NCBI GenBank assembly: GCA_018262875.1
Contig: JADFDL010000006.1
Span: forward strand, 1-21,248
DNA: 21,248 nucleotides
Origin: Rhodocyclaceae bacterium
GTDB taxonomy: Bacteria > Pseudomonadota > Gammaproteobacteria > Burkholderiales > Rhodocyclaceae
Reading direction: 5' to 3'
A program made the translations under genes and the position numbers. The notes below the pieces were generated by a model. It was not told where the DNA came from. It ran no database searches and was given only the letters and a program-made list of their open reading frames with translations. Shown piece after piece: positions 1-16,023 of this stretch (positions are counted from its first letter, which is position 1; the number at the start of each line of letters is the position of its first letter).

Positions 1-713
1 GCCTGGGCGATCTTGGCGCCGGTCGGGCCCGAGCCGGTGAACATCACTTTGTCGATGCCCGGGTCGCCGGTGAGCCAGGCGCCGACTTCGCCGGTGCCGC
101 TGACGGTGTTCACCACCCCGGCGGGGAGCACTTCGTTGATCAGGCGCACCAGCTCCAGCGTGCCGATCGAGGTGTACTCGGAGGGCTTGAGGACCACGGT
201 GTTGCCGACGCGGATCGAGGGGATGATCTGCCAGATGGCGATCAGGAGCGGCCAGTTCCACGGGGCGACGGCGGCGACCACGCCGAAGGGTTTCCTGTGC
301 ACTTCGTCGCGGCGGGTGTCGTCTTCGAAGGCCAGTTCGACCGGCAGGTCGAGGCTGGCCGGCACCTGGGTCCACACTTCGCAGCCCCACAGCTCGAAGC
401 GCGCGCCCGGCACCTGGTCGGGGCCGAGGCCGCCGAGCGGCTTGCCCTGCTCGCGCGTGACCCAGTCGGCCAGGTAGGGGGCGTTGGCCTTGATGACTTC
501 GGCGACTTTCATCATCAGGGCCTTCCTTTCGGCATCGGGCCGCGCCGCCCAGGCGGGCTGGGCGGCACGCGCCGCGGCGATCGCATCGGCGACCTGCTGT
601 TGGGTGGAAATGGGCACACTGCCCAGGCTCTCGCCGGTGGCCGGATTGAGCGACTCGAAGGTCTTGTCCGAACCGACCGGCTTGCCGTTGAGGGTGTTGA
701 GATAGGTTTTCAT
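1..713 (-). CDS. Aldehyde dehydrogenase, N-terminal 237 residues (runs off the window)
   Basis: The translation is an NAD(P)+-dependent aldehyde dehydrogenase covering the coenzyme-binding domain. Visible motifs are NPATGE (residues 23-28), EQGKP (88-92), PWNWP (149-153, with the oxyanion-hole Asn151), LKPSE (173-177, with the coenzyme-binding Lys) and FTGS (223-226). The catalytic Glu and Cys lie beyond the window edge, so activity cannot be confirmed here. The ATG start has an AGGAG six bases upstream and lies 52 bp after the YCF48-like gene, so it is probably the last or a late gene of the amine-dehydrogenase operon. By position, I infer that it oxidises the aldehyde released by the amine dehydrogenase. 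The exact substrate cannot be read from the sequence. Confidence 0.9.
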   Translation of the reverse strand, partial: MKTYLNTLNGKPVGSDKTFESLNPATGESLGSVPISTQQQVADAIAAARAAQPAWAARPDAERKALMMKVAEVIKANAPYLADWVTREQGKPLGGLGPDQVPGARFELWGCEVWTQVPASLDLPVELAFEDDTRRDEVHRKPFGVVAAVAPWNWPLLIAIWQIIPSIRVGNTVVLKPSEYTSIGTLELVRLINEVLPAGVVNTVSGTGEVGAWLTGDPGIDKVMFTGSGPTGAKIAQ

Positions 714-765
714 GGCTGGCTCCTAGCGTGGGTTGACGTTGACGAACTTGCGGGAACTTACACCT

Positions 766-1725
766 TCAGTTGATGCTGCCGCCGACACCGGCGAGCGTAA
801 ATGTGTGCAGCGCGTCGCCGGCTTCGATCAATGCCGTGTGCGACTGCCTTTCCGGGCGGACCTGGACGGCGAAGGTATGGCCGCCATCCCTGCTGCGAAT
901 GACTGCGCCGCCCAGGCCGGCGACAACGATCTCGCCGCCGTCACGCTGCACGCCTGCGGTCAGCGCCTGTTGCGTGCCGCTCGGCACGTCGATCCAGGTG
1001 CGGCCGCCGTCGCCGGAGCGCAGGACGCGGCCGCGCATGCCCCAGATCAGCACGGAACCGTCGCGCAGTGCCATGCCGCCCCAGATCGAGCCTTTATACG
1101 GCAGCGAAACGGCTTCGAATGAAGCGCCGCCGTCGCCGGAGCGAAAGACGGTGCCGCCTTCGGCGGTGATCCACAACACGCCCTTCGGCCCGGCAAAGAT
1201 GCTGTACAGATGCTGGTCGGCATACTCGCCGCGGCTGATCGCCGTTTTCTTCCAGGTGCGCCCGCCATCTGCCGTAAGCGCGGCAAAGCCGAAGGCGCCC
1301 ACCACCAGGCCGCGCTGCGCGTCGAGAAAATGCACGGCGAACGGCACGACTTCGCGGCCCAGTTCCGCCAGCCGCGTCCACTGCTCGCCGCCGTCCTGCG
1401 ATCCCAGCACGACGCCGCCATGCCCCACCGCCCAGCCCTGCCGCCCCGCGTCGAAAGCCAGGGCGGTCAGCGTGGCGCGGGTGGGGGTGCGCGCCTGGCG
1501 CCAGTTGCGGCCGGCATCGTCCGAGAGCAGCACAGTGCCGAAATCGCCTGCTGCGACGATCCTCTCGCCCGCGTGCGCCGCCGCCATGAGCGGCGCCCGC
1601 GCGGCATGCGGCGCCATGAAGGCTTCCGTGGCCGGCGCCGCGGCCGCCTGCGGCCACGCCGTGCCGGGCGCGGCGAGGAAAGTCAGGCTGCAGGAGACGG
1701 CGAGGATTGCGCGCAGCTTGCTCAC
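766..1725 (-). CDS. YCF48/BNR-repeat beta-propeller protein, exported
   Basis: This is a 319-residue protein starting with a hydrophobic signal peptide (about residues 1-26, ending AWPQA). It carries six Asp-box motifs of the S-x-D-x-G-x-x-W/F type at residues 68-75, 109-116, 151-158, 196-203, 237-244 and 278-285, spaced about 41 residues apart, which indicates a six- to seven-bladed propeller. The fold is shared with the photosystem II assembly factor Ycf48/HCF136, but nothing else here is photosynthetic. I chose the GTG start at 1725 because GGAGG lies five bases upstream, the signal peptide begins there, and GTGA overlaps the stop of the TerB-like gene. A longer reading would run back through that gene. 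By context it is probably a periplasmic partner or assembly factor for the RND/DUF1302 system. Confidence 0.88.
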   Translation of the reverse strand: MSKLRAILAVSCSLTFLAAPGTAWPQAAAAPATEAFMAPHAARAPLMAAAHAGERIVAAGDFGTVLLSDDAGRNWRQARTPTRATLTALAFDAGRQGWAVGHGGVVLGSQDGGEQWTRLAELGREVVPFAVHFLDAQRGLVVGAFGFAALTADGGRTWKKTAISRGEYADQHLYSIFAGPKGVLWITAEGGTVFRSGDGGASFEAVSLPYKGSIWGGMALRDGSVLIWGMRGRVLRSGDGGRTWIDVPSGTQQALTAGVQRDGGEIVVAGLGGAVIRSRDGGHTFAVQVRPERQSHTALIEAGDALHTFTLAGVGGSIN

Positions 1726-2216
1726 GATGCCTCCGTTCCGCGCGCAGCGGAATTCGCGCGGGCGAAAGCCCGCTCGCGTGCCGCATCGACGGCCTGCGGT
1801 GAAAGATCGAGGGCCATGGACAAGCGCCCCATCAGCTCGTCCTCGAAACGCGCCAGATTGCCGTCGGCATAGACCACCTGCCAGAGCATTTCCAGCACGG
1901 CCTCGCGTTCCTGTTCGCCAAAGCATTCGCGCACGGCCTGGGTGAACACCCAGTCATCCAGGGCCGCGGCGAACTCGCCTTCGGCAATTTGCAGCAATTG
2001 GGCGGTTTCTGCCGGCGGCAGCCGGAAGTGTTCGCGGACCAGGCGCTTGACGACGGCGCGCTCCTCCTCGCGGATGCTGCCGTCGACCTGCGCCGCTTCC
2101 AGCAGGAGCGCCGCCACGGCCAGATCGGCGCGCGGAAAGGGCAGCAAGGTGGGGGGCGTCCCGGGTGCGGCACGCAGTTTCTCGAGCAGGCTTTTCAGTG
2201 GCATGGGTACGCTCAA
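1722..2216 (-). CDS. TerB-like domain protein
   Basis: This is a soluble, helical, acidic 164-residue protein with the TerB-family pattern. Two similar helical segments each carry an acidic turn: VDGSIREEE at residues 44-52 and ADGNLARFEDE at 117-127. There is no signal peptide or membrane segment, so a cytoplasmic location is likely. TerB-like domains occur in tellurite-resistance proteins and in many proteins of unknown role. The reading used here starts at a TTG whose TTGA overlaps the stop of the RND gene. An in-frame ATG at 2204 (MPLKSLLEKL) is an alternative start with no better ribosome binding site. It overlaps the next gene by 4 bp, so it is probably translationally coupled on both sides. 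Its function is unknown. Confidence 0.8.
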   Translation of the reverse strand: MSVPMPLKSLLEKLRAAPGTPPTLLPFPRADLAVAALLLEAAQVDGSIREEERAVVKRLVREHFRLPPAETAQLLQIAEGEFAAALDDWVFTQAVRECFGEQEREAVLEMLWQVVYADGNLARFEDELMGRLSMALDLSPQAVDAARERAFARANSAARGTEAS

Positions 2217-4573
2217 TGGGCCATGAAGGGGGCGCGCACCGGGCGCCGGCGCGGGATCAGCACGTCGATCGTCACCGCCAGCGCGGGCAGCAGAGTGATC
2301 GCCATCAGCATGTTCACCATGAACATGAAGGTCAGGAGCAGGCCCATGTCGGCCTGGAACTTGAGCGCCGAGAATGACCAGGTGGCCACGCCGATCGACA
2401 GCGTGACGGCGGTAAAGAACGTGGCAATGCCGGACTCCATGAGCGATTGCCTGAAGGCCGTGGCAATGTCGGCGCCCTGCGCCAGGTACAACTGAAGCCG
2501 GTTATAGATGTAGTAGGCGTAGTCGACGCCGATGCCGACGGCCAGCACCATCACCGGCAGCGTGGCCACGGTCAGGCCGATGTCGAGTTCCTTCATGAAC
2601 CAGTAGCCGAGGAAGGTCGCCAGCGTCAGCGGCAGGCAGCAGGCCACCATGGCGCGCCAGTCGCGGTAGGTCAGCAGCACCAGCGCGATGATGGTGGCGT
2701 AGACGTAGAGCATCATCGGCAGTTCGGTGGTCTCCAGCACCTCGTTGGTGGCCGCCTGCACGCCGGCATTGCCGCTGGCCAGGCGCACCGACACGCCCTC
2801 GAATGTCTCGCGCTCGCGGAACGCGCGCACGGCGGCGATGACGCCCTTGATGGTGGTGGCCTTCTGGTCGGTCAGATAGATATTGACCGGCAACACCGTG
2901 CAGCCGGGATTGAACAGGCCGGTGCCCTCGGGAATCAGGCCGACGGAATTGGCCAGCGAACGCTCATCCAGCGCCAGGGCGGTCCACTTCGGATACCCCT
3001 CATTGGTGCCGGCATAGGCCTGCTTGGCCAGTTGCGCAACCGAAGCGACCGAGAGGACGCCCGGCACATTCGACATCTGCCAGGCAAACTGATCGATGTA
3101 CGCCATCGCGTCGGTCCGGTAGCAGCCATCCTTGGGCGTCTCGAAGACGACCGTGAGGACGTCCAGGCCGAGGTCGAAGCGCTCGACGATCGCCGCCGCA
3201 TCCCGGTTGTAGCGGGAATCCGCATGCAACTCCGGCGCACCCGGCTTCAGGTGGCCGACGTGCCGGCTCTGGCTCTGCTGGTAGGCGAAGGCGAACAACA
3301 CCATGCCGACCAGCGTGCCGATAGCGGCATTGCGCGTCGTGGCAATGCGGCCGAAGTAGCTCATGGCGCGCGCACGCGCTTCGCGCCGCTGGTGCGCGCG
3401 CGCCACGTAATCCTCGCCGAACCGGCAATAGGAAGCCGCCACGGGCAGCATGATCAGGTTGGTGACGATCTTGTAGGCAACGCCGATGGACGCGGTGATG
3501 CCCAGCTCGCGGATCATCGGGATCGGGATCAGGGTCAGCGTGGCGAAGCCGACGAAGGCGGTCACCAGCGCCATGGTGCCGGGGATGAACAGCCCGCTGA
3601 AGCTGCGCCGGGCCGCCGTGACGGCATCGTTGCCGGCGCAGATTTCCTTGGAAATGTAATTGATCTGCTGCACGCCGTGAGAGACGCCGATGGCGAAGAC
3701 AAGGAAAGGCACCAGAACGGCGAGCGGATCGAGCCCGTAGCCGAGCAGCCGCAGCGTGCCGAACTGCCAGATCAGGGACACCAGCGAGCAACCCAGCGGC
3801 AGCACGGTCAGCACCAGCGAGCGCGAGTAATAGAACACGGCGGCGGCGGTGAGCAGGAAGGCCAGCGCGAAGAACTGCACCACGCTCCTGGCGCCGTCGG
3901 CGATGTCGCCGATCTGCTTGGCGAAGCCGATGATCTGGATCTCGAATTGGGCATCTTCGTGGCGGGCGCGGACGTCCTGCTCCAGCCGCCTGGCGAAATC
4001 GAGGTAATCGAGTTTTTCGCCGCTCTTCAGATCGTGTTCGAGGAGATCGGCCACGACCATGGCGCCGCTGCTGTCCTTGGCGACCAGGCTGCCCATGTAG
4101 CCGCCGACCAGGGCGTTGTAGCGGATGCGCGCAATCTTCTCCGGCGTGAGCTGGTCGGGCGTAGTGTCGCCGCCGATCACGTCCTCGGCGCGAAAACCCT
4201 CTTCCGTGACTTCGAGCACCCGCGTGGTGGGGGTCCATAGCGACGAGACGGTACGCCGGTCGACGCCGGCGAGGAACATCACGGACTGCGTGACCTCGTA
4301 CAGGCGCTGCAGGCCCTCGGCGGTCCATATCTCGCCCTGGCGCGGATGCACCACGACGATGATGCGGTTGGCGCCGAACACCTCGTCGCGGTACTGGTTG
4401 AAGGTCTGGATGAATTCGTGGCCCTGCGGCAACTGCTTGTCGAAGCCGGCATCCATTTTCAACTGGACGGCGAACGCCGCCATCAGCAGGGTGAAGGCGA
4501 GCAGCGCGCCAAGCGCCAGGGCGCGTCGCCTGAAGAACAGGTCTTCAAGCCGTTGAACCAGGGGTGCGATCAT
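2213..4573 (-). CDS. RND superfamily (MMPL/HAE3-type) transporter
   Basis: This 786-residue inner-membrane transporter is made of two RND repeats. Each has one TM helix, a large periplasmic domain and a five-helix bundle. TM1 is about residues 18-36, the first bundle about 232-380, TM7 about 413-431, and the second bundle lies in the C-terminal third. The second half carries GIGVDYAYY (680-688) with the conserved TM4-type Asp684. The equivalent site in the first half reads AIGVSHG (294-300). The length and this asymmetry fit the hydrophobe-exporter (HAE3/MMPL) branch rather than AcrB-like tripartite pumps, and there is no membrane-fusion protein beside it. It sits between DUF1302 and TerB/YCF48 genes. 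A role in moving a hydrophobic molecule across the envelope is inferred; its direction is unknown. Confidence 0.92.
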   Translation of the reverse strand: MIAPLVQRLEDLFFRRRALALGALLAFTLLMAAFAVQLKMDAGFDKQLPQGHEFIQTFNQYRDEVFGANRIIVVVHPRQGEIWTAEGLQRLYEVTQSVMFLAGVDRRTVSSLWTPTTRVLEVTEEGFRAEDVIGGDTTPDQLTPEKIARIRYNALVGGYMGSLVAKDSSGAMVVADLLEHDLKSGEKLDYLDFARRLEQDVRARHEDAQFEIQIIGFAKQIGDIADGARSVVQFFALAFLLTAAAVFYYSRSLVLTVLPLGCSLVSLIWQFGTLRLLGYGLDPLAVLVPFLVFAIGVSHGVQQINYISKEICAGNDAVTAARRSFSGLFIPGTMALVTAFVGFATLTLIPIPMIRELGITASIGVAYKIVTNLIMLPVAASYCRFGEDYVARAHQRREARARAMSYFGRIATTRNAAIGTLVGMVLFAFAYQQSQSRHVGHLKPGAPELHADSRYNRDAAAIVERFDLGLDVLTVVFETPKDGCYRTDAMAYIDQFAWQMSNVPGVLSVASVAQLAKQAYAGTNEGYPKWTALALDERSLANSVGLIPEGTGLFNPGCTVLPVNIYLTDQKATTIKGVIAAVRAFRERETFEGVSVRLASGNAGVQAATNEVLETTELPMMLYVYATIIALVLLTYRDWRAMVACCLPLTLATFLGYWFMKELDIGLTVATLPVMVLAVGIGVDYAYYIYNRLQLYLAQGADIATAFRQSLMESGIATFFTAVTLSIGVATWSFSALKFQADMGLLLTFMFMVNMLMAITLLPALAVTIDVLIPRRRPVRAPFMAH

Positions 4574-4663
4574 CTTGATGCGATACCGGAAGGAAGGCGC
4601 GGGAGGCGCCCGGGGCGGTCAGCCGCCCCGGGGCTTCGAGTCGATCGTGCGCAGCGAGCTTGC
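4574..4663 (-). other. 90-bp gap between DUF1302 and RND genes with a GC-rich hairpin
   Basis: A perfect 10-bp inverted repeat lies at 4609-4618 (CCCGGGGCGG) and 4623-4632 (CCGCCCCGGG) around a 4-nt loop. In the direction of transcription it follows the DUF1302 stop by about 30 bp and is not followed by a T-run, so it is not a classical intrinsic terminator. It could stabilise the upstream mRNA, attenuate read-through, or be a REP-like element. I see no promoter of good quality and no open frame. The RND start has only a weak ribosome binding site. Confidence 0.6.
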
Positions 4664-6499
4664 TCAGAAGGTGTAAGAAACGCTCCCGAAGGCGAAATCG
4701 CGGTCGCGCATGAGGTTGTTGTTGCCGCCGCCCCAGAAGCGCGTCACGCCGAGATTGGCCTTCCATTTGCTGTCGCGGTCGAAATTGAGGGAGAACGCCG
4801 CCGACTTTCGTCCTTCGACGAAAGGCAGGGCATTCGGCGTGGTGCCGTTTACATCATGGGCGAAGTCGAGCTGGGGCGCCATGTTCCAGCCGCTGCCGAA
4901 AAGGTTCGGATAGGTCAGGCCCATCGACAGGACATAGCCCCAGGAGGTCTTGTTCGGAATCTCGTAGTTCGACAGCAGGTAGGGCACCTGGCCGGAACGG
5001 TCGAGTCCGGGATAGTAGGCGATCGCCGCTTCGCCCAGGACATAGCCTTCCGCGGCGCCGAGCCCGCTCATGATGGCGCCGAGGGGGCTGGAAGGCGCAA
5101 TCAGATAGAAGCCCGTCAGGTGCGCCTGCCATTTCCGCTCGGTGGTGAAGCCGCGCGCCACCTTGCCGGCATACTCGAACACCGAATACTTGCCGGCCGC
5201 CGGCACGGTCGGGTCGATGGCAACGCTGTCCTTCGGCCGGTAGGAGAGCTCCGCGCCGACCGCTACCGGGCCGATGTTGGTATTCATCGATATGCCGAAG
5301 AGATTGCGCTTCTCGCCATAGTCTTCGAAATAGGTAACGCCGAGGAGGTTGCTCGGGCTGCCGGCATTCCTGAAACCGATGAAGGGAATCTTGTCGTGAT
5401 AGCGGATGTAGTAGAAGCCGAAATCGCTGCTCAGGGCGTCCGACTTGTAGCGGAAGGCTGCGCCGAACTGGCCGCCCTTCGGATCGCGCACGCCGTCGCG
5501 GTAGGCGACGCTGCCGGTGCCGACGGCGCCATAGGCCGGATTCAACAGCGGATCGGCCAACTGGGCGGCGGTCAGGCCATGCGGCCCGCCCGGGTCGCCG
5601 ACGGTGCCGGCGGGAAAGGGCGATCCCGGCAGGCCGAAGTTGTTGGCGATCGAAGTCGGCACATAGGCATTGTCAGCGCTCTTGCCGAGCACGTCGGCCG
5701 GCGAGAAGAAGGTGCCGACGGCGGGGAACTGGAAGGCATTCCACTTCCACTGGTAATAGCCTTCGAAGCTGAGGTTGTCGGTCACCGAGGCATTCAGCGA
5801 AATCATCGGCGCCGGCCGGAAGACCTCCTTCAACTGGGTGCCGGGAACGCTGAAGCGCTGCAGATCGATGGCGTTGGTGATGTTAACGCCGCCGTAGATG
5901 AAGACGTCCTCGCCCCAACTGATGACCTGGTTGCCGATCTTGACCTTGGCCGGCCGGTCGCCGATGTGGAACTCCTTGGCGATCCAGGCGTCGAGCCAGG
6001 TCCAGTTCTTGACCGCGATATCCTCGGCGGCATTGGAGAGCGGCGTGCGCCGGGTGTCGTCGGCCTTGAAGTCCTTCATCCAGGACGCGCGCAGCAGCGC
6101 GGTAAGCCCGGCCGGCGCCTTCAGGTAGAGCTCGTGGGTGCCTTTCAGCGCCACCGAGACGACGTCGCCTTTTTTGTAGTTGAGGTTGCCGTTGTCCGAC
6201 TGCAGATAGTTGAAGTCGGGCGGCGAATTGACGCCGCCGCCCGGCCCGTACATTTTTTCGCCCAGTGTCCCGGAAACCGCAGTGCAGCCGCCGTTGTCGT
6301 TGCCGATCACGCTGCAATGGGTCGATTCCAGCCGCTGCCGGAAACCGAGGGAAATAGTTGAGTCGAAGCTGCCCGACACCGATTCGCCCTCGAATTTGAA
6401 TGCCGCCGCCGGCTGGCTGGCGAGCAGGCCCAGCCCGCCCAGCGCGACGGCCAGAACTGTCTTGCGACCGGTTCCGATGCCATGTTGGTTCTTTTTCAT
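4664..6499 (-). CDS. DUF1302 family outer-membrane protein
   Basis: The protein has 611 residues. A signal peptide (about 1-33, ending QPAAA) is followed by long stretches of alternating polar and aromatic residues typical of beta-barrel strands, and the chain ends in Tyr-Thr-Phe, the terminal aromatic expected of an outer-membrane barrel. These features and the Gly/Asn-rich loops match the DUF1302 family. The ATG at 6499 is chosen because GAGGAGG ends five bases upstream; a GTG two codons earlier overlaps that site. It lies 26 bp after the DUF1329 gene. DUF1302 and DUF1329 proteins are commonly adjacent in catabolic clusters for hydrophobic compounds, so an outer-membrane uptake or export channel is a reasonable inference, not a demonstrated role. 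Confidence 0.9.
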   Translation of the reverse strand: MKKNQHGIGTGRKTVLAVALGGLGLLASQPAAAFKFEGESVSGSFDSTISLGFRQRLESTHCSVIGNDNGGCTAVSGTLGEKMYGPGGGVNSPPDFNYLQSDNGNLNYKKGDVVSVALKGTHELYLKAPAGLTALLRASWMKDFKADDTRRTPLSNAAEDIAVKNWTWLDAWIAKEFHIGDRPAKVKIGNQVISWGEDVFIYGGVNITNAIDLQRFSVPGTQLKEVFRPAPMISLNASVTDNLSFEGYYQWKWNAFQFPAVGTFFSPADVLGKSADNAYVPTSIANNFGLPGSPFPAGTVGDPGGPHGLTAAQLADPLLNPAYGAVGTGSVAYRDGVRDPKGGQFGAAFRYKSDALSSDFGFYYIRYHDKIPFIGFRNAGSPSNLLGVTYFEDYGEKRNLFGISMNTNIGPVAVGAELSYRPKDSVAIDPTVPAAGKYSVFEYAGKVARGFTTERKWQAHLTGFYLIAPSSPLGAIMSGLGAAEGYVLGEAAIAYYPGLDRSGQVPYLLSNYEIPNKTSWGYVLSMGLTYPNLFGSGWNMAPQLDFAHDVNGTTPNALPFVEGRKSAAFSLNFDRDSKWKANLGVTRFWGGGNNNLMRDRDFAFGSVSYTF

Positions 6500-6525
6500 A
6501 TTCACCTCCTCAGGTATCGTCGTGT

Positions 6526-7890
6526 TCAGCGATCGCCGACGCGGCGCAGTTCATCCGGGTTGAAGCGGCTCTTCTCGATGCGCCCCTCGCGGCCGGCCAG
6601 CCAGTCGGTTTCCGGGCGCTCCTGCGTCGAGTTCTCGGCAATGTAGCGGCCGACGTTGAGGTCGTAGCCCATGTTTTCCTGGGCGACGCAGGCGGGGATT
6701 TCCGGCGCGACGATGAGGCTCGATTCCTGCACGCGCCAGACCTTGCCCTGGGCGTCGTAGTTGTCGACGACCATGATGCCCCAGCTATCCTCGTCGAGAT
6801 AGAACACCCGCTTCGGGAAGATGTGGCGCATGCCCGCCTTCAGCGTCGCCTCCACTTTCCAGACGCGGTGCAGCTCGTAGCGAACCAGGTCGCGGTTGAC
6901 GTAGTCCGGGCCGTAAATGTCCTTGTACTTGCGGCCCTTGTCGACCCACTTCCAGCTGTTGTAGGGAATGTACAGCTCCTGCTTGCCGACCAGCTTCCAG
7001 TCGTAGCGGTCCATGGCGCCGGCGTACATCGGATACTGGTCCACGGTCTCCAGGTTTTCGTAGCCCGGCACCGGATTGTCGTAGGCGAAGGTCGGCGCGC
7101 GGCGCACGCGGCGCTGGCCCGGGAAGTAGAGCCAGGCTTCGCTCGCTGCGTTCATCGACCAGTGGGCGAGGATCATCTCGCCGGTGCGCGCCGCCGGGGA
7201 CACCACGGCGTTGAGCAGTTTCATCTCGACGCCGTCGACCTCTTCCACGCCTTTGTTGTTGCGGTTGTGGAAGGGAACCGTCACCCACTGATCCTGCATC
7301 AGCGGCGTGGAATCGCCGCTCTTGCTGGAAAAGAGCGTCGCGTAATACTCGACGCGGCCCTCACCCTGGTAGCGCAGCTTGTGGTTCCACATGGCTTCGG
7401 CGCCGCTCTTGGGAATCGGGAAGATCACCGCCGCGCCGACCGCCTTTTCCAGGCCCCAGCCGTTGGCGGCGAGCTTGGCGTCCTTGGCGTTCGTCCGGGA
7501 GCGCTCGTAGACGAAGTCGGGGAAGCCGCAGGAGCGATGCGTCGGATAGACGTCCATGCGATAGCCCTTCAGCGTCTTGACCAGCGCCAACTGGCCTTCC
7601 GAGAGCTTGTCCTTGTACTTGTCGACGTTGGAGGCGTCGATGGCGTAGAGGGGCTTGTCGTCCTTGAACGGGTCGATGCGCTTTTGCCCCGGCTTCCAGC
7701 CTGCCGGCGGTTTCGTGATGCCGCCGGCCCATTCGGGAATGGAGCCGTCCTTGTTGCCGGCCTTCTCTGCGCCCACCGGCGTCAGTTCCTTGCCGAGGCG
7801 AGCGATCTCCGCGTCGGTCGCGGCGGCGGCAGCCAGCCCCCAGGCGCAGACCAGGCATGCTGCAATTGTCGTTCTTGTAATCGACTTCAT
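6526..7890 (-). CDS. DUF1329 family periplasmic/outer-membrane-associated protein
   Basis: The protein has 454 residues and a clear N-terminal signal peptide (about residues 1-23, Ala-rich cleavage region). The mature part matches the DUF1329 pattern: an early LTPVGAEKAGNKDG-type segment, many Trp and Tyr residues, and the C-terminal NVGRYIAENSTQERPETDWL-like region followed by charged residues. The ATG at 7890 has GGAGG seven bases upstream. It lies 35 bp after the cytochrome c gene and 26 bp before DUF1302, so it is very probably co-transcribed with the amine dehydrogenase genes. The family has no established biochemical function. The fold is thought to resemble LolA/LolB-type lipid-binding beta-sheets, so lipid or hydrophobic ligand binding is a plausible guess. 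Confidence 0.9.
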   Translation of the reverse strand: MKSITRTTIAACLVCAWGLAAAAATDAEIARLGKELTPVGAEKAGNKDGSIPEWAGGITKPPAGWKPGQKRIDPFKDDKPLYAIDASNVDKYKDKLSEGQLALVKTLKGYRMDVYPTHRSCGFPDFVYERSRTNAKDAKLAANGWGLEKAVGAAVIFPIPKSGAEAMWNHKLRYQGEGRVEYYATLFSSKSGDSTPLMQDQWVTVPFHNRNNKGVEEVDGVEMKLLNAVVSPAARTGEMILAHWSMNAASEAWLYFPGQRRVRRAPTFAYDNPVPGYENLETVDQYPMYAGAMDRYDWKLVGKQELYIPYNSWKWVDKGRKYKDIYGPDYVNRDLVRYELHRVWKVEATLKAGMRHIFPKRVFYLDEDSWGIMVVDNYDAQGKVWRVQESSLIVAPEIPACVAQENMGYDLNVGRYIAENSTQERPETDWLAGREGRIEKSRFNPDELRRVGDR

Positions 7891-7925
7891 CCGTGCTCCT
7901 CCTTTTGAATCGTTTTTTCTGATGC

Positions 7926-8360
7926 CTACTGCTCTCGCAGACGGCGCACTTCGTTGGGCGGCAGGGCCCGCTTGCGGGCGGCCGCGACTTCCTGTTGCGT
8001 GATGCGTTGTTCACCCGGCACGCCGTTCAGATCGCCGAGGACATGGCCGGCGAGGACGACGATCTCGTCGTCGGAGAGCGCGGCAAAGGACGGCATGGCG
8101 TCATTGAACTTCTCGCCGCCCGAAACAATCGGGCCCATCATGCCGCTCACCACCAGTTGGGCCAGGTAAGCCCGGCCGGACTCCTTTTTCGCGCGCTCGG
8201 CTAGATTGCCCGCCAGCCGCGGCGCAAAGCCGGGGATGCCCTCGCCCTTCTTGTCGTGGCAGACGGCGCAATGCTGTTCGTACAGCGCTGCGCCGCGCTC
8301 CTGGGCGCAGGCCGCGCTCGCCACGGCCAGGGCGACGCCGAGCGCCAGAGCGTGTCTCAC
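7926..8360 (-). CDS. Monoheme class I cytochrome c, periplasmic
   Basis: The protein has 144 residues with a signal peptide of about 19 residues (ending SAACA), one heme-attachment motif CAVCH at 31-35 and a probable axial Met89 in AMPSF. These are the marks of a small soluble class I cytochrome c. The GTG start overlaps the aauA stop as GTGA, so it is translationally coupled to the small subunit of the amine dehydrogenase. The obvious inferred role is electron acceptor for the TTQ enzyme, passing electrons toward a terminal oxidase or reductase. The well-studied Alcaligenes faecalis enzyme can use azurin; no azurin gene is visible in this window. The C-terminal 30 residues after the heme domain are charged and of unknown use. 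Confidence 0.9.
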   Translation of the reverse strand: MRHALALGVALAVASAACAQERGAALYEQHCAVCHDKKGEGIPGFAPRLAGNLAERAKKESGRAYLAQLVVSGMMGPIVSGGEKFNDAMPSFAALSDDEIVVLAGHVLGDLNGVPGEQRITQQEVAAARKRALPPNEVRRLREQ

Positions 8361-8887
8361 GATTCCTTCTCCGCCAGGCCGATCAGCACCGCCGTCGTGC
8401 AATGGAACATGGTGCTGCTGGTGTTGGCCATGCACCAGTTGACGTCGTTGTGCAGCCCCATGCGGTAGCCGGGACGGTCGCCGAGATTGGTGTTGCACAG
8501 GCAGCGGCCGCAGGCCGTCTTGCCGCAGCAGTCGTTGTAGCTGATGAGGTAGTCCTTGCCGTCCTGCGGATTGCGGCAGGTGCCGATCCAGGCGACCTTG
8601 GAGACTTCCGTTCCCGGCGGGCAGGTCGACAAGCTGCCGCCGCAGCAGGAGCAGAGGAAGCCGTCCACCGCGCAGTAACGCCAGTAGTCGCAGTCATGCA
8701 CGCCCGGCTCCTTCTTCTTGCCGCCCGATCCCGCGGCGGCGCGGGCGATGCGATCGAAAGGCAGCACCGGCAGGGTGAAGGCGGCGCCGACCAGCAAGCG
8801 GCCGATGCCCACCAGCGCGCTGCGGCGCGACACGCGCTGTGCCGCGCGGCGGCTCGATCGTTCGAAGAAATCGTCAAGCCATTTCAT
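8357..8887 (-). CDS. aauA: Aromatic amine dehydrogenase small (TTQ) subunit
   Basis: This is the catalytic light chain (176 residues) of a periplasmic quinoprotein that oxidatively deaminates primary amines. It has 14 cysteines, among them FLCSCCGG, DCC and CGRCLC. The pair Trp100 (VAWIGTC) and Trp151 (VNWCMAN) is 51 residues apart, the spacing of the two Trp residues that form tryptophan tryptophylquinone. Asp119 (YNDCC) matches the catalytic base, and Thr164 (HCTT) the active-site Thr. From memory of both families, the CSCCGG, GKTACGRC and LHNDVNWCMAN segments match aromatic amine dehydrogenase better than methylamine dehydrogenase. The long leader contains SRRSAL (20-25), a twin-arginine-type signal. 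The ATG overlaps the aauD stop by 4 bp. The substrate (e.g. phenylethylamine or tyramine) is inferred. Confidence 0.93.
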   Translation of the reverse strand: MKWLDDFFERSSRRAAQRVSRRSALVGIGRLLVGAAFTLPVLPFDRIARAAAGSGGKKKEPGVHDCDYWRYCAVDGFLCSCCGGSLSTCPPGTEVSKVAWIGTCRNPQDGKDYLISYNDCCGKTACGRCLCNTNLGDRPGYRMGLHNDVNWCMANTSSTMFHCTTAVLIGLAEKES

Positions 8888-9492
8888 GTTCCGCTTCCCT
8901 GTCCAGCCTGGCCGGTGACGAATTCCTGCACCGAGGCCACGTTCATCTCCTTGGCGGTGAACAGGCTTTCCAGTTGCTCCCGCGAATTCACCAGGCCTTT
9001 GGCGCGCACGCGTCCGGCCTCGTCGAGCAGCACCGCGTAGGGCAGCTTGCCCACCCGGAGAGCCATGCCCAATTCGGCCGACAGAACATAGGAAAAGTCA
9101 GTCAGCGCAGCACGGCGGTAAAAGGCCCTGTGCTCCTCGGGCTCGCCGTCGCTCGCCAGCACGATGCGCAACCAGCCGGCTTCGGCGGCGGCGATGGATT
9201 TCAGGATGGGAAGCAGTTTCTTGCACACCGGACAGGTGGGCGAGAGAAAGAACAGCAACTGGCTGTGGCTTCCGGCGGCGCCGACGGCTACGGCGCCGCC
9301 GCCCAGCGCCGGCAGATCAAGGCGCGGCGCCGCTTCGCCGACGGCGGGCCCGGAGTCGATCATCAGGGCGCCCATCGGCGCCACGCGTTCGTAAAGAATG
9401 CCGACCTGGCGCGCCAGGGCGAAGACTGCCACCAGCAGGGCGAGGACGACGGCCCAGAGGATGGCATTGGAAATGGCGAGTGCGTCGATCAT
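8884..9492 (-). CDS. aauD: AauD/MauD thioredoxin-like maturation protein
   Basis: The protein has 202 residues with an N-terminal membrane anchor (about 9-28), a linker, and a thioredoxin/AhpC-like domain whose redox motif is CPVC at 87-90 within SPTCPVCKKLLP. The homologous MauD proteins are needed to make disulfide bonds in, or to stabilise, the cysteine-rich small subunit in the periplasm. The neighbouring aauA product, with 14 cysteines, is the obvious client. The ATG at 9492 follows the aauE stop by 5 bp with AGAGG just upstream, and its own stop overlaps the aauA start as ATGA. An open reading frame continues far upstream in the same frame across aauE and aauB, but only this start gives the membrane anchor and the family length. 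Confidence 0.92.
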   Translation of the reverse strand: MIDALAISNAILWAVVLALLVAVFALARQVGILYERVAPMGALMIDSGPAVGEAAPRLDLPALGGGAVAVGAAGSHSQLLFFLSPTCPVCKKLLPILKSIAAAEAGWLRIVLASDGEPEEHRAFYRRAALTDFSYVLSAELGMALRVGKLPYAVLLDEAGRVRAKGLVNSREQLESLFTAKEMNVASVQEFVTGQAGQGSGT

Positions 9493-9497
9493 TCGGT

Positions 9498-10037
9498 TCA
9501 GCCTCTCAGTTTCAGCAGGCGCGGCCGGTTGGCCATGAGCTGGTTGGCGGCGGCATACAGTCCATACAGCGCCAGCGTTCCCGCGACCACCGTCAGGCCG
9601 TCGAGCCAGACCAGCTCGCGCGGCGCTTCCGCGGCCCGCGACAGCGCTGCGGCGAGGCACAGCATCCCGTTGCGCAGGACCAGCCCCCAGGAAAGATGCT
9701 GGCCGCCCTCCGGTCCGCCGCAGCCACAGTCGATGGCCCGGCGTCCGCGCAGCAGATTGACAGCAACCGCCAGCGTCACCGCGGCCAGCACGGCCAGCGC
9801 CAGCGCGGCGCCCAGCGCCCGTGTCGCCAGGGGCAGGAGCAGCAGGCCGGCGCCGGCTTCCGCCAGCAGCAGCGCCCAGGCGGCGGGCGGCGCCCAGGCT
9901 GCCGGCAGCAGCCGGTATTGCTCGACCGCCATGGCGAATCCGTCCATGTCGCGCAGCTTCTGCCAGGCGCCGCCCAGAAACACGATCGCCAGCAGCGCGG
10001 CGAACATGTGCGGCAAGGTCGGATCGAGCGCGTTCAC
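9498..10037 (-). CDS. aauE: AauE/MauE integral membrane protein
   Basis: The protein has 179 residues with about five transmembrane helices (roughly 8-25, 47-70, 74-95, 117-134 and 145-164). A conserved Cys-Gly-Cys-Gly-Gly turn (residues 104-108) lies in the loop after the third helix. This is the MauE/DoxX-like pattern found in every TTQ amine dehydrogenase operon. MauE works with MauD in the export or disulfide processing of the small subunit, and the CGC pair may relay electrons across the membrane as DsbD/CcdA do. The GTG start directly follows the aauB stop with no spacing (TGAGTG). An in-frame ATG at 10007 would shorten the first helix. Family assignment is firm; the detailed mechanism is not established. 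Confidence 0.9.
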   Translation of the reverse strand: MNALDPTLPHMFAALLAIVFLGGAWQKLRDMDGFAMAVEQYRLLPAAWAPPAAWALLLAEAGAGLLLLPLATRALGAALALAVLAAVTLAVAVNLLRGRRAIDCGCGGPEGGQHLSWGLVLRNGMLCLAAALSRAAEAPRELVWLDGLTVVAGTLALYGLYAAANQLMANRPRLLKLRG

Positions 10038-11183
10038 TCAGTGCAGCTCCATCAGCGTGGCGGCCTCGCCGATCTGTTCCATGCGCTTCAGAAAGCGCGG
10101 CTTCACGCCGGCATCGAACACCGCCAGGCCCATCTTCACGCCGTCGATGGCAAACAGTTTCGGCTGGTCGGTCTGGCTCACCGCGAGGGCGATGGCGTTG
10201 TGCCCGGGCAAACGCGCCAGGCGCTTCTTTTTCTCGATGTCGAAGACCCAGATTTCCTGCGCCGGATTCTTGTGCGTGCCCTCGGCGCCGCCCGAATGCA
10301 TGGCGACGAACAGGCGGCCGCTCTTGCGATGGACGGCGACAAGCTGGTAGCCGCCCGGACGCCAGCCCTTGCGCGCCTCCGCCGCCGTGGCCAGCGGCCA
10401 CGGCGCGTCCACCATCGGCTTGTCGCCGGAGAGGTCGGCGGCGTACACCTGGCCCTTGTAGGAGACGAAATAGTGCCGGTCGCCGATATTGTCGCTCTGG
10501 ACGAAGACCGGATCCTCGTCGGGATGGAAGAAGCGGGCGCTGCGCGTGCGCGACTTCAGGCCGCCGTTGTCATCGAGGACGATGCTTTGCATCGTGCCGT
10601 CGCCGCACAGCGTGGCGAAGCGGTTGCCGGCGCTTTGCGAAGGAATGACGATCCAGCAGCCGGGGGTGGCGATCTCGGCCGCGAACTTGCGCGCCTTGAG
10701 GTCGACCACCGTCACCGAGGAGGCGGGGGTGGCGTTCTGCACGTACAGCCAGCGGCCGTCGGCGGAGGGCCGGATCAGGCCCTTGTAGGGCAGGGCCTGG
10801 GCGTGGCGCGCCGGGATCGCGATCTCGCCCCGGTGCTCGAGCGTCTGCGTATCGTGGATATCCACCACTTCGGTGCGCTCACCGCGCGACAGGCGCGAAT
10901 AATAAGTGGTGGCGACGTAGAGTTCCTTGCGGTCGAGCGAAAGCGTGGCGTTGCCGGCGTAACCGGTGGAAATCATGCCGAGGTAGTTCAGGCCGTCGCC
11001 ATCGATGACATGCAGCCGCCCGTCCACGATGTGGTTGATGGAGATGTCGGAAACGTAGAGTCGATGCGGCGACGCCTCCGGCAGCCGGGCCACCGTCAGG
11101 GTTTCGTAGCGGGGCTGGGCCATGGCGATGCACGCCGTGCAGGCAGCGGACACGAATACGGCCACGCGGATGAAACGCGACAA
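10038..11183 (-). CDS. aauB: Aromatic amine dehydrogenase large subunit
   Basis: This is the heavy chain, a seven-bladed beta-propeller that pairs with the TTQ subunit as a periplasmic heterotetramer. With the start chosen it has 381 residues: a signal peptide ending near AMA (20-22), then propeller segments such as RLHVID (56-61), TTYYSRLSRGERTEVVDIHD (92-111), GCW (175-177), CGDG (193-196), FVSYKGQVYAADLSGD (239-254) and GTHKNPAQEIWVFD (302-315). Cys176 and Cys193 match a conserved disulfide pair. These segments resemble the A. faecalis aromatic enzyme as I recall it. The TTG at 11183 is preferred because AAGGAGG precedes it by about nine bases and the signal peptide follows. An ATG at 11237 would add 18 residues but lacks such a site. 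Confidence 0.9.
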   Translation of the reverse strand: MSRFIRVAVFVSAACTACIAMAQPRYETLTVARLPEASPHRLYVSDISINHIVDGRLHVIDGDGLNYLGMISTGYAGNATLSLDRKELYVATTYYSRLSRGERTEVVDIHDTQTLEHRGEIAIPARHAQALPYKGLIRPSADGRWLYVQNATPASSVTVVDLKARKFAAEIATPGCWIVIPSQSAGNRFATLCGDGTMQSIVLDDNGGLKSRTRSARFFHPDEDPVFVQSDNIGDRHYFVSYKGQVYAADLSGDKPMVDAPWPLATAAEARKGWRPGGYQLVAVHRKSGRLFVAMHSGGAEGTHKNPAQEIWVFDIEKKKRLARLPGHNAIALAVSQTDQPKLFAIDGVKMGLAVFDAGVKPRFLKRMEQIGEAATLMELH

Positions 11184-11408
11184 AAGTTTTCTCCTCCTTG
11201 TTGCGCCGCAATAATTTTCTTCTTGAAACAGCGGCATGCAGTGAGGCCGGATTCTAGGCAGGGATGCCAGCGGCCCGTTAGCCCAAATCGGCAAGCAGAG
11301 AAAAAAGATCGCCGTTTGTTGCCGCGCCGCCACAAACGGCGCTTGCATTCGGGCCCCCATTCGGTTTTACTGCCCTCTCACCCCCAACCGGTCTGCACCC
11401 AGCACGGC
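11184..11408. promoter_or_regulatory. Divergent promoter region between aauB and the AraC-type regulator
   Basis: This 225-bp non-coding segment separates the amine operon (minus) from its probable regulator (plus). On the minus strand, TAGAAT at 11251-11256 is a good -10 candidate (5 of 6 to TATAAT) with no recognisable -35 box, which fits an activator-dependent promoter. It would place transcription start near 11244 and give a leader of about 60 nt. On the plus strand only a weak pair (TTGCAT at 11343-11348, TTTTAC at 11365-11370) is visible. The regulator's ATG lacks a clear ribosome binding site. A strong inverted repeat is listed separately. Confidence 0.6.
11310..11341. promoter_or_regulatory. 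Inverted repeat, candidate operator for the amine operon
   Basis: Two perfect 10-bp arms, CGCCGTTTGT (11310-11319) and ACAAACGGCG (11332-11341), flank a 12-bp spacer. The arm centres are 22 bp apart, about two helical turns, as expected for a dimeric regulator bound to one face. The centre lies about 80 bp upstream of the inferred aauB start site, a usual distance for an upstream activator. The AraC-type protein encoded next to it is the natural candidate binder, though AraC proteins often bind direct rather than inverted repeats. It could instead form a hairpin in the regulator's mRNA. Confidence 0.55.
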
Positions 11409-12440
11409 ATGGAGACGACGCCTTCAAATTCTCCCGATTCGCACGATGCGACAGATGCGCTCGACGAGCAGGCGCTCTACTCGCTGGTGCGCCGCGAGAC
11501 GCGCGACGCCGACGAGCAGGCCGCCTGCCTGCGCGACTGGGATCAGGTGTACGAACAGCTCTCGCCGGGACAGTTCGAGGGGCGCTTCATGGAAATCCGC
11601 TTTCGCGGCATCCAGCTGTTTCGCGAGGTCACCAACCAGTCGGTGCATGAAGAAGGGCTGATGCGCGCCGGCGAGCGCGTGCTCGGCGTGCCGGTGGCGA
11701 TGCAGGGCCAGGGCTATTTCTGCGGCCGGCCGATCACCCCGGATGCCATCATGACCATGCGCGGCGGCGAAGCGCTCGAATTCAGCGCGCCCGAGCACTT
11801 CGACATCGTTGCCGTTTCCTTTCCGGTCGATGCGCTGACCCGCTATGCCCGGGATATCGAGCACCGGGAAATCGAAGCGGAGCTGCAGAATGTCGCGGTG
11901 CTCCAGGCCACCAAAACGGCGGTCGACGAATTCCGCGGCTTTCTGCTCACCGCGCTGGAGTCGGTCTCGCGCACGCCGGCCATGCTGCAGTTCGCCGCGA
12001 TGCAGAAAGGGCTGGAGCACGCGCTCCTCTCCAGCGTGGTGAAGGCCGTCGGCCTCGTCGAAGACGGCCGCGTACCGGACACGCCGACCGCGCGCCACGC
12101 CCTCGTCTCGCGCGCGCAGGACTACATGCGCGGGCATGTCGACGAACCGCTCACGGTGGAAGACCTCTGCCGCGAGCTGGCGGTGAGCCGGCGCACGCTG
12201 CAATACAGCTTCCAGGAAGTGCTGCAGATCAATCCGGTCAGCTACCTGCGCGCCATGCGCCTGAACGGCGTGCGCCGCTCGCTCAAGGCCGCCGATCCGG
12301 CGCGGCAGTCGGTGCAAGACATCGCCGCGCGCTGGGGCTTCTGGCATCTCTCCCACTTCGCCAACGACTACCGCCGCATGTTCGGCGAACTGCCCTCGGA
12401 AACCCTGCGCGGATCGGCGCACCCGGCGCGGCTGGTTTAG
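11409..12440 (+). CDS. AraC-family transcriptional regulator, EutR-like
   Basis: The protein has 343 residues. The C-terminal part (about 230-335) is an AraC-type double helix-turn-helix. The first HTH is around LTVEDLCRELAVSRRTLQYSF (248-268). The second is around VQDIAARWGFWHLSHFANDY (302-321), with the family tail YRRMFGELPSETL. The N-terminal 200 residues (QLSPGQFEGRF, IQLFREVTNQSVHEEG) resemble the sensory half of EutR-like regulators of ethanolamine catabolism, which fits amine sensing. It is transcribed divergently from aauB, so it is the likely activator of the amine dehydrogenase operon. The ATG is used because METTPSN starts just before the conserved part; upstream sequence in frame looks non-coding. 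Its end is 12 bp from the convergent HAD gene. Confidence 0.9.
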   Translation: METTPSNSPDSHDATDALDEQALYSLVRRETRDADEQAACLRDWDQVYEQLSPGQFEGRFMEIRFRGIQLFREVTNQSVHEEGLMRAGERVLGVPVAMQGQGYFCGRPITPDAIMTMRGGEALEFSAPEHFDIVAVSFPVDALTRYARDIEHREIEAELQNVAVLQATKTAVDEFRGFLLTALESVSRTPAMLQFAAMQKGLEHALLSSVVKAVGLVEDGRVPDTPTARHALVSRAQDYMRGHVDEPLTVEDLCRELAVSRRTLQYSFQEVLQINPVSYLRAMRLNGVRRSLKAADPARQSVQDIAARWGFWHLSHFANDYRRMFGELPSETLRGSAHPARLV

Positions 12441-12452
12441 CTCGAAAGTCAG

Positions 12453-13124
12453 TCACGGCGACACGGCGAGCAGGTCGAGCGCCTGGCGGAACGATTCGGC
12501 CGGATGCGCGATATCGAACCACACCGCGCGCATGCCGGCCTGCGCCGCCCCCTCCACATTCGGCCGCTGGTCGTCGACGAACACGCAGGCGGCCGGCGCC
12601 AGGCCGAGCGCTTCGATGCAGAGGGCGTAGGCGCGCGGGTCGGGCTTGAGGATGCCGGTATAGGTGGCGTCCACGATGCAGTCGGCCTGGCGCAGCACGG
12701 CCACGCGGCTGCGCAGTTCGCGGCCGTAGAACAGATCCAGTTCGTTGGAAAGAATGGCGATGCGGCAGCCGGCGGCCTTGGCCGCCTCGATGGCGGCGAC
12801 CGCCTCGGGGCGGATCACCGCGTCGGGGTCGGCGCCGCGGGCGCGCACGACGAAAGTCTCCATGCGATCCCAGTCCTCGCCCAGCAGGGCGCCCACTTCG
12901 CGCGTGCGCGCCAGCCAGTAGTCGCGTTCGCTGAGGCGCCCCGCCTCCATGTCGCGCCAGAGCGGGTCGCTCCCGGCATCGAAGGGGCCGCGCCACTTGA
13001 GCGTACCGGGCGCCAGCCCCAGCGCCGCCTCGGTGATGGCGTGCGTCTCGAACAGCGTGCGGGTGACAACGCCGCCGAAATCGAGCACCAGCGCCTGCTG
13101 TCGGGCCTCCCGCAAACCGCTCAT
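12453..13124 (-). CDS. HAD-superfamily protein with atypical motif I
   Basis: The protein has 223 residues with a HAD fold. Motif I is LVLDFGGVV (nucleophile Asp15), motif II is ILSNE (Ser126), motif III is Lys160 in LKPDPRAY, and motif IV is VFVDDQRPNVEGA (Asp184, Asp185). The residue two after the nucleophile is Gly17. Most HAD phosphatases have Asp there as general acid/base, so this may not be an ordinary phosphatase. DFGGV-type motifs occur in subfamily IA proteins, some annotated as epoxide-hydrolase or haloacid-dehalogenase-like. The ATG overlaps the stop of the Tm-1-like gene by 4 bp (ATGA), so the two are coupled. Substrate unknown. Confidence 0.87.
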   Translation of the reverse strand: MSGLREARQQALVLDFGGVVTRTLFETHAITEAALGLAPGTLKWRGPFDAGSDPLWRDMEAGRLSERDYWLARTREVGALLGEDWDRMETFVVRARGADPDAVIRPEAVAAIEAAKAAGCRIAILSNELDLFYGRELRSRVAVLRQADCIVDATYTGILKPDPRAYALCIEALGLAPAACVFVDDQRPNVEGAAQAGMRAVWFDIAHPAESFRQALDLLAVSP

Positions 13125-14374: not shown

Positions 14375-14483
14375 GCCATTCCCCCAGCCCCCTTCCCGGG
14401 GAAGGGGGTGACGGTCGTTCGCAGGCTGTGCCCGCTCCATGTCGTTGACTGCGCCGCCCTCGGGGCGGCCCGGCGAGCGGCGC
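14375..14483 (-). other. 109-bp gap with two GC-rich hairpins
   Basis: Two inverted repeats separate the aminotransferase gene from the Tm-1-like gene. One has 7-bp arms GCCGCCC (14453-14459) and GGGCGGC (14463-14469), about 15 bp after the aminotransferase stop. The other has 9-bp arms CCCCCTTCC (14388-14396) and GGAAGGGGG (14400-14408), ending some 13 bases before the next ATG. Neither is followed by a T-run on the minus strand. The first could act as a weak or factor-assisted terminator; the second could affect translation of the Tm-1-like gene or be a dispersed REP-like element. No promoter is evident. Confidence 0.55.
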
Positions 14484-15851: not shown

Positions 15852-15928
15852 GGACTTTCCGATGCTGTGGTGCGTGGGCGTTCCCGGCAAACAATACGCA
15901 AACGATACGCTCGGGGCGGCTAATTTAC

Positions 15929-15950
15929 ATTGGTTGTCTTTACAACCAAT
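15929..15950. promoter_or_regulatory. Palindrome 1, candidate operator
   Basis: Perfect 9-bp arms ATTGGTTGT (15929-15937) and ACAACCAAT (15942-15950) surround a 4-nt centre CTTT. It lies about 80 bp upstream of the aminotransferase start and 135 bp upstream of the aldehyde dehydrogenase start. The length and symmetry fit a MarR-type dimer site, and a MarR gene lies in the plus-strand operon. The core GTTGTCTTTACAAC is nearly repeated at 16010-16023. Confidence 0.65.
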
Positions 15951-16009
15951 ATCCCAAAACGGCAAACGGAGGAAAATTTTATTCTTGCTGCGCGACGCGG
16001 CGCAAAAAC

Positions 16010-16023
16010 GTTGCTTTTGCAAC
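16010..16023. promoter_or_regulatory. Palindrome 2, same core pattern as palindrome 1
   Basis: The arms GTTGC and GCAAC surround TTTT, giving GTTGCTTTTGCAAC. Together with the core of palindrome 1 this defines GTTGYYTTTRCAAC. The two centres are 77 bp apart, close to seven helical turns, which would allow one regulator to occupy both sites on a similar face. Confidence 0.5.

Follow-up and report, generated by a model that had tools for sequence, protein, structure and literature searches.

Why should the genes of a periplasmic amine dehydrogenase run on, without a break, into a set of genes for envelope transport? The question is raised by a contig of 21,248 nucleotides from a Rhodocyclaceae bacterium (JADFDL010000006.1, assembly GCA_018262875.1), which we analysed over its full length and refer to as the window. 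The first-pass annotation had read its minus-strand gene run as one joint system that moves a poorly soluble amine, or its toxic aldehyde, across the outer membrane while the amine is oxidised in the periplasm. Comparison with related loci lends good sequence support to the view that the amine dehydrogenase and the envelope module (DUF1329, DUF1302, an RND transporter and a YCF48 propeller) form one co-regulated system, and a functional link of the module with amine oxidation is very probably real.

The run reads from 11183 to 3 and comprises the genes listed below. Loci and genomes of the comparison are cited by L and G numbers, and names of the Ame type refer to the AmeABCD system of Castellaniella defragrans.

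10038..11183, minus strand: aauB, large subunit of an aromatic amine dehydrogenase (AADH); PF06433, E 4e-52; TTG start behind AAGGAGGAG
9498..10037, minus strand: aauE, MauE-like membrane protein; named by position and by tblastn conservation beside aauD/aauA, without an NCBIfam match
8884..9492, minus strand: aauD, MauD-like disulfide protein; NCBIfam TIGR02661, 213 bits, above cut-off
8357..8887, minus strand: aauA, small subunit of AADH, bearing tryptophan tryptophylquinone (TTQ); PF02975, E 3e-52
7926..8360, minus strand: periplasmic monohaem cytochrome c; Cytochrom_C / Cytochrome_CBB3, CAVCH in the sequence
6526..7890, minus strand: DUF1329, LolA-like periplasmic protein (AmeB-like); PF07044, E 6e-137; PF17131 LolA_like at cut-off; AlphaFold pLDDT 88
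4664..6499, minus strand: DUF1302, predicted outer-membrane beta-barrel (AmeA-like); PF06980, E 7e-141; AlphaFold pLDDT 80.5, mostly long strands
2213..4573, minus strand: RND/MMPL transporter of HAE3 type (AmeD-like); PF03176; best NCBIfam match TIGR00921 (HAE3), below cut-off
1722..2216, minus strand: TerB-like protein; tblastn match to L201, whose own TerB matches PF05099
766..1725, minus strand: YCF48/BNR propeller with a signal-peptide-like start (AmeC-like); PF14870, E 1.5e-18
3..713, minus strand: aldehyde dehydrogenase (ALDH), cut by the contig end; PF00171, no signal peptide by eye

The intergenic distance is -4 bp at aauD/aauA, aauA/cytochrome c, RND/TerB and TerB/YCF48; the gaps measure 35 bp between cytochrome c and DUF1329, 26 bp between DUF1329 and DUF1302, 90 bp between DUF1302 and RND, and 52 bp between YCF48 and ALDH. 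Pfam and NCBIfam matches back Me-amine-dh_H, Me-amine-dh_L, MauD, cytochrome c, DUF1329, DUF1302, MMPL/RND, YCF48 and ALDH. Profile matches and coordinates thus bear out the gene run and spacing of the first-pass annotation (-4 to +90 bp, all on the minus strand), and the end that it had set at 11183 is the TTG start of aauB. The window is the entire contig of a 54%-complete genome, and the ALDH gene at its end is therefore truncated. In G1119, a genome of the same genus (99% complete, one contig), the run extends through a full ALDH gene, a small cytochrome c gene and two tandem MauG-family genes. A sigma-70 consensus search of positions 1-12500 found no internal promoter, the consensus being only weakly informative at this GC content. 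ARAGORN called a tRNA-Cys at 3164-3247, inside the RND coding sequence; the call is most likely false.

By its chains, the enzyme is an AADH-like TTQ aromatic amine dehydrogenase, for which oxidation of arylalkylamines is predicted. AauA is nearer to the solved light chain of AADH (199 bits) than to that of methylamine dehydrogenase (155 bits), and AauB is likewise nearer to the heavy chain of AADH (298 bits against 139). W100 and W151, which stand 51 residues apart, and D119 are invariant across 27 AauA sequences; in what we take to be AADH numbering, these are presumably the two TTQ tryptophans and the catalytic aspartate. A methylamine dehydrogenase (mau) identity is disfavoured by the light chain being nearer to AADH and by the MauG-like matches falling on another short contig (mauF was not searched for).

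That contig of the window's genome carries the MauG-like genes as a pair. In L239 (6354-8527, G1119) and L244 (G000:C158), the ALDH gene at the end of the aau run is followed by a small cytochrome c gene and by two MauG-family di-haem genes in tandem. At E 1e-40, 6 of 17 AADH genomes and 2 of the 10 others searched have the pair. It was rejected as a general TTQ maturase, as only 6/17 AADH genomes have it; for part of the AADHs it is a possible one.

How far does the neighbourhood hold in other genomes? A scan of 84,980 species genomes for AauA gave at least 586 confirmed relatives, of which the 80 closest were kept. Forty-nine of these loci have at least 9 kb on both sides, and DUF1329, DUF1302 and RND are present in 46 of the 49. 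Conserved adjacency of aauA with these three genes, which the first-pass annotation had named as a check on its idea, was thus found. Across all 80 loci, the module is complete in 62, partial at contig ends in 7 and missing from 11, 8 of which are short-flanked. It is divergent from aauB in four loci and lies upstream on the same strand in one. Parazoarcus communis SWub3, Azoarcus sp. L1K30 and Zoogloea oleivorans (loci L016, L019 and L028) share the window's arrangement. Of the three full-flank exceptions, two encode, elsewhere in the genome, an RND that is 58-59% identical to that of the window. As the 80 loci had been picked for closeness, evenly drawn samples were added from the order (399 genomes) and the phylum (397 genomes); the module stands in 8 of the 39 PF02975 loci opened from them.

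Within the window's family, PF02975 occurs in 14 of 121 genomes, that of the window included. An RND that shares 54% identity or more with that of the window (E 1e-200) is encoded in all 14, compared with 12 of the 107 others (Fisher 1e-11). This RND lies within 6 kb of aauA in 13 of the 14; in the fourteenth, both genes are near contig ends.

To which transport systems does the module belong? DUF1302, DUF1329, YCF48 and an HAE3-like RND occur together in the window, which makes up all protein kinds of the Ame type, in the order DUF1329-DUF1302-RND-TerB-YCF48. An RND tree of 128 rows, in which each locus is represented by one RND with 550 or more aligned residues, splits the window's clade A (103 rows) from clade B (25 relatives, 37-48% identity) by a fully supported branch. 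Each of our trees comes from one FastTree run, long branches were flagged, and near-copies remain among the rows (L011 has the sequence of L094). In the loci mapped, clade A modules run DUF1329-DUF1302-RND-YCF48; clade B modules run DUF1302-DUF1329-YCF48-RND, which is the AmeABCD order, in 23 of 25 loci (L152 and L153 deviate). Clade B is likened to Ame by this gene order, AmeD itself being absent from the tree. The window's module would represent a second lineage of the Ame-type module, and we file it as a variant rather than a member because the gene order differs and AmeD is not among the tree rows. TerB was rejected as part of the module core: among the 80 loci, it is confined to those whose DUF1329 shares at least 52% identity with that of the window. 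Whole-genome searches of 24 of the genomes with module-less PF02975 loci from the even samples found an RND of the window's type only in G533, where it is module-linked at L108, and in G758.

Conserved position does not by itself tell whether module and enzyme are expressed together, and we turned to the gap upstream of aauB, where the following features lie:

11276..11294, minus strand: operator-like motif TTGCCGATTTGGGCTAACG upstream of aauB; position weight matrix score 36.4
11251..11256, minus strand: -10-like box TAGAAT, 19 bp past the operator-like motif; conserved spacing
11409..12440, plus strand: AraC-family regulator, EutR-like, divergent from aauB; HTH_18; best NCBIfam match EutR, 221 bits, below cut-off

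The araC-aauB gap holds CGTTANCCGAAATCGGCAA (toward aauB: TTGCCGATTTCGGNTAACG) with at most 5 mismatches in 18 in 51 of 53 loci (shuffled mean 1.25), a descriptive figure, the matrix having been trained on these 51 aauB promoters; only sites from beyond this set enter the tests, some near-copies among them (L201/L202, L234/L235). The motif has a TTGCC half and a TAACG half. Within the window, the matrix finds two sites, one before aauB and one before an omega-transaminase gene at 15.9 kb.

Modules that are not close behind aauA are the more telling case. A site with a score of 14 or more lies within 400 bp of DUF1329 in 14 of 35 such modules; in clade B, where the stretch upstream of DUF1302 was scored, 0 of 24 modules have one. 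Modules with less than 250 bp upstream (L075 among them) did not enter the count. Random 420-bp stretches reach this score in 88 of 3000 draws in clade A loci and in 16 of 3000 in clade B loci. Among the 14 are the divergent modules of L021, L022, L069 and L079, in which the site lies between aauB and DUF1329 and faces the module. Four further modules, 1-1.3 kb behind aauA, carry a site of their own; in L075, the module and aauB are each preceded by a site. A separate constitutive promoter or a lack of conserved linkage had been named in the first-pass annotation as pointing to chance adjacency; what we found is that many separate modules bear the same operator-like promoter.

A whole-genome pattern search (14 genomes, at most 2 mismatches) gave 19 sites. 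Six of them lie at aauB, four of these being assigned by their distance from aauA. Modules account for 4 sites, the alpha subunit of quinohemoprotein amine dehydrogenase (QHNDH, an enzyme with cysteine tryptophylquinone, CTQ) for 2 (in G350, far from its module, and in G1131), qhpG (NCBIfam NF049967, above cut-off) for 1 and unlinked ALDH genes for 2, each site standing before the gene named. Three are inside seemingly unrelated genes and are probably spurious, and one (G1094:C1:3442882, 2 mismatches) was not opened. No site was found in G1068, G1158 and G019, which are without PF02975 and without strong PF09098 (G019 has a weak partial PF09098 match). A -10-like hexamer follows the motif at 18-20 bp in 38 of 51 aauB promoters and 22 of 27 other sites, compared with 3 of 48 chance hits. 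In our reading, the motif is a candidate activator site overlapping the -35 region. It is not confined to module-bearing loci, because L089 (G028) has a site (24.3) before aauB though the locus is without a module. We infer an amine-induced regulon under the EutR-like AraC activator, with binding at the motif.

If module and enzyme are co-regulated, is the module tied to the TTQ enzyme in particular? The tree of AauA and AauB together (116 rows, FastTree) needs 7 changes for module presence and 14 for module type, the "hi" and "lo" types being set by a 50% threshold of DUF1329 identity and not by clade. L002, L003 and L005 illustrate such a swap: AauA is 83-88%, AauB 69-78% and ALDH 77-88% identical to the window's, yet DUF1329 only 44-46%. 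On the RND tree, the labels AADH, QHNDH and flavin oxidase need 6 changes. The QHNDH-linked modules of L201-L203 nest on short branches among AADH-linked ones, so that one enzyme gave way to another next to an almost unchanged module.

Clade A modules stand near QHNDH in L201, L202, L203 and L205, and also in L204 and L206, where some 12 kb separate them from the alpha subunit; the example loci show PF09098, PF09099, PF09100 and PF14930, along with genes for a radical SAM protein and an S8 protease. In L207, L208, L210 and L212, they stand beside a flavin amine oxidase with a twin-arginine-like leader (PF01593 in L207 and L210) and an AraC gene. Within the family, 23 of 30 clade A places are at most 13 kb from AADH (13, with PF02975 taken as AADH), QHNDH (6) or flavin oxidase (4). 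At E 1e-6, all three are absent from the 25 clade B loci (Fisher 1e-9), in an unmatched comparison, clade B being mostly outside the family, with several short flanks (7 kb in L146) and with 25 of 26 controls used (the low-identity place G143 was left out). Specificity of the module for TTQ-AADH was rejected on the strength of the non-aau modules beside QHNDH and flavin amine oxidases. The joint system proposed at first therefore stands as a co-regulated pair of module and dehydrogenase, with a linkage that is conserved and survives rearrangement and with a shared operator; its restriction to TTQ enzymes does not.

The RND also matches 22 plasmid records, 14 of them at 55-61% identity, and 8 of these were opened. 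A Cupriavidus pinatubonensis plasmid carries AADH and a flavin oxidase, and three plasmids have a distant (24-31%) flavin-oxidase match. A Variovorax plasmid (L253) has operator-like sites at 3008, 4298 and 6560, near AraC, ALDH and permease genes and the module; its 22 kb gave no match to the amine-enzyme probes.

Some other settings of clade A modules were also seen. In L214 and L215 (RND 54%), the module lies inside a cobalamin synthesis / TonB receptor-like locus with no amine enzyme. In L204, L206, L209 and L211, a peptidase U32-family gene adjoins it (PF01136 in L206); L204 and L206 are the loci also near QHNDH. L143 (G127) has the module by a pyrroloquinoline-quinone-type quinoprotein dehydrogenase, Baeyer-Villiger-like monooxygenases and a GMC oxidoreductase (names by eye), and other periplasmic dehydrogenases may use the module as well.

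What, then, would the module do for an amine oxidiser? The common denominator of the partner enzymes found would be an aldehyde made in the periplasm. The nearest matches of the window's ALDH are dehydrogenases of aminobutyraldehyde and phenylacetaldehyde, with scores under the respective cut-offs. Within 3 kb past the module, an ALDH gene is found in 43 of the 76 clade A loci that leave space for one, against 1 of 22 in clade B, with probes taken from clade A loci. In the explanation that we favour, the EutR-like AraC activator would switch on an amine-catabolic regulon, and the TTQ aromatic amine dehydrogenase would oxidise the amine in the periplasm and pass the electrons to cytochrome c. 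The co-expressed module, with DUF1329 as carrier, DUF1302 as barrel, RND as pump and the YCF48 propeller, would handle the hydrophobic toxic product, most likely the aldehyde, and lower the aldehyde load of periplasm and membrane by outward transport; a cytosolic ALDH would consume the aldehyde that enters the cell. Taken whole, with cargo and direction included, we give this explanation a probability of roughly 0.48. We infer the aldehyde (over the amine) as cargo and the outward direction, and favour them because the partners share a periplasmic aldehyde, an ALDH gene follows the module and the Ame system has a tolerance phenotype. A broader statement, on which we are evenly divided, would be that of an enzyme-independent system of betaproteobacteria, in which one module lineage under one EutR-like operator serves any amine oxidase, be its cofactor TTQ, CTQ or FAD, and carries the aldehyde or a hydrophobic amine; the window's genus would add an omega-transaminase branch, possibly for diamines.

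Several observations weigh against this picture. In the even samples, 31 of the 39 PF02975 loci have no module in the stretch examined, some flanks being short (downstream in L083 and L099, among others). On this count, the claim of a joint system is too broad for all TTQ loci, and the idea that the module is required for AADH chemistry was rejected; the more distant module-less PF02975 loci are taken to be putatively methylamine-dehydrogenase-like. The three loci nearest to the light chain of Alcaligenes faecalis have no module nearby. As for the motif, 21 of the 35 separately placed modules lack it within 400 bp, and flavin-oxidase-linked loci score weakly (12.4-17.6), before the oxidase and not before DUF1329; in these loci the module lies further down the same strand. 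Seven of the 30 family clade A places have no linked amine enzyme, namely G1103 (with PF02975 on another contig end), two contig-edge loci (U32 and ALDH), one by ALDH/GabT-like genes, two cobalamin-like loci and one 3.9-kb contig (names by eye). The loci L142, L144, L217 and L218 are without an amine enzyme too, and the plasmid loci L247, L250 and L252 lack both the enzyme and the motif. There is no ALDH gene just downstream in 33 of the 76 clade A modules.

The same regulon could also work in reverse, the module importing a poorly permeating amine (long-chain, bulky or a diamine), for which the DUF1302 barrel and the DUF1329 carrier would be the route. The DUF1302, DUF1329, YCF48 and RND genes of P. 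putida, according to the excerpted text of PMC10866462, are needed for growth on Tween 20, which would also fit uptake. The partner enzymes are, or seem likely to be, active in the periplasm, and the proposed regulon has an omega-transaminase next to a semialdehyde dehydrogenase-like enzyme, which would fit diamines. On the other hand, RND pumps are established outward antiporters and small arylamines pass porins, both of which argue against import, as do the loci closest to the A. faecalis AADH, whose genomes have no RND of the window's type. We consider import unlikely, though it is the strongest of the rivals. Still less probable, in our view, is a role in envelope upkeep or enzyme maturation, such as lipid adjustment or the periplasmic assembly of quinone enzymes, in place of metabolite transport. 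DUF1329 is LolA-like, YCF48 is by its Pfam name a photosynthesis assembly factor and the link spans enzymes that require special maturation; however, the flavin amine oxidase is also paired with the module and needs no quinone maturation. The same module kinds serve growth on terpenes and Tween in the excerpts of PMC6394551 and PMC10866462, and expression of the quinohemoprotein enzyme is described, in the text available of PMC7876137, with qhpABCDEFGR alone.

Chance adjacency, or hitchhiking of a general efflux module, could draw on the clade A modules of the cobalamin-like locus L214/L215 and of plasmids L250 and L252. It was rejected in view of the 46/49 and 14/14 counts, the repeated partner swaps and the operator that many separated modules carry of their own, and we regard it as very improbable. 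Outward handling of the aldehyde remains the reading that we prefer.

The system can be set beside several described ones. AmeABCD shares with it the same four protein kinds (DUF1302, DUF1329, COG4447/YCF48 and HAE3 RND), and, in the excerpted text of PMC6394551, it sits in a catabolic island and is up-regulated with its substrate; its deletion in C. defragrans lowered monoterpene tolerance and altered Nile Red influx, and it was proposed to be an exporter. The order given there, DUF1302-DUF1329-YCF48-RND, differs from DUF1329-DUF1302-RND-(TerB)-YCF48 in the window, and the window-type module, unlike AmeABCD, pairs with periplasmic amine oxidation and an EutR-like regulator. According to the excerpts of PMC10866462, PP_0765, PP_0766, PP_2018 and PP_2019 of P. 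putida comprise a DUF1302, a DUF1329, a periplasmic protein and an efflux transporter; their phenotypes on Tween 20 are linked, and barrel-carrier and carrier-pump contacts are predicted. In contrast to the window, these genes are split over loci, no amine dehydrogenase is named in those excerpts and the likeness is by description only. The qhpABCDEFGR genes encode an amine-induced periplasmic QHNDH, described without DUF1329, DUF1302, RND or YCF48 in the parts of PMC7876137 at hand. The AraC regulators beside QHNDH in the window's family are EutR-like or 52-55% like the window's, and the QHNDH genes of several genomes share its operator-like promoter. Unlike the described qhp genes, 7 of the 18 strong QHNDH places in the family have a module within 13 kb; the link of QHNDH with the module is partial. 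Finally, the window has the gene order that we take the A. faecalis aau cluster to have, aauB-E-D-A and then a monohaem cytochrome c; it differs from the module-free loci closest to that cluster, and its genus ends the run with the MauG-like pair.

A literature search, in which subscription journals were thinly covered, found among the matches listed no paper that ties DUF1302, DUF1329 and RND to amine dehydrogenases. The parts are of known kinds; their co-regulated, enzyme-independent pairing appears to be new. Genes for DUF1302, DUF1329, YCF48 and HAE3 RND recur in catabolic islands, and the promoter motif and the repeated exchange of partners now connect such modules with a single reaction, the conversion of amine to aldehyde in the periplasm, whichever enzyme performs it. 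With the pairing come a defined class of substrates and a likely inducer for asking what the modules move, and the aau and qhp pathways as described would gain a transport step. The operator-like motif can be used to find further members.

One probable member lies in the window itself, on the far side of the regulator. The region 12453-18917 encodes a HAD hydrolase, a UPF0261 protein, an omega-transaminase, a semialdehyde dehydrogenase-like ALDH and an APC permease, and the second operator-like motif faces the transaminase:

15947..15965, minus strand: second operator-like motif, toward the transaminase, with TAAATT at 19 bp; matrix score 23.8; in the same place in 5 further genomes
14484..15851, minus strand: class III omega-transaminase, a putative regulon member; PF00202; NCBIfam PRK07481, 719 bits; nearest solved structure 5lh9, an omega transaminase
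13121..14374, minus strand: UPF0261 protein after the transaminase (start by eye); PF06792/PF23189; conserved with the transaminase
12453..13124, minus strand: HAD-family hydrolase; PF00702; conserved neighbour
16084..17526, plus strand: second aldehyde dehydrogenase, succinate-semialdehyde dehydrogenase-like

No motif was found before the transaminase in L079 and L245; in six loci (five genomes), the motif in this place scores 19.0-28.6. The branch is kept, whole or in part, beside AADH in eight loci (seven genomes), and in L245 it stands beside a clade A module without AADH. It would fit the use of diamines by way of omega-amino acids, a fit that is not proof.

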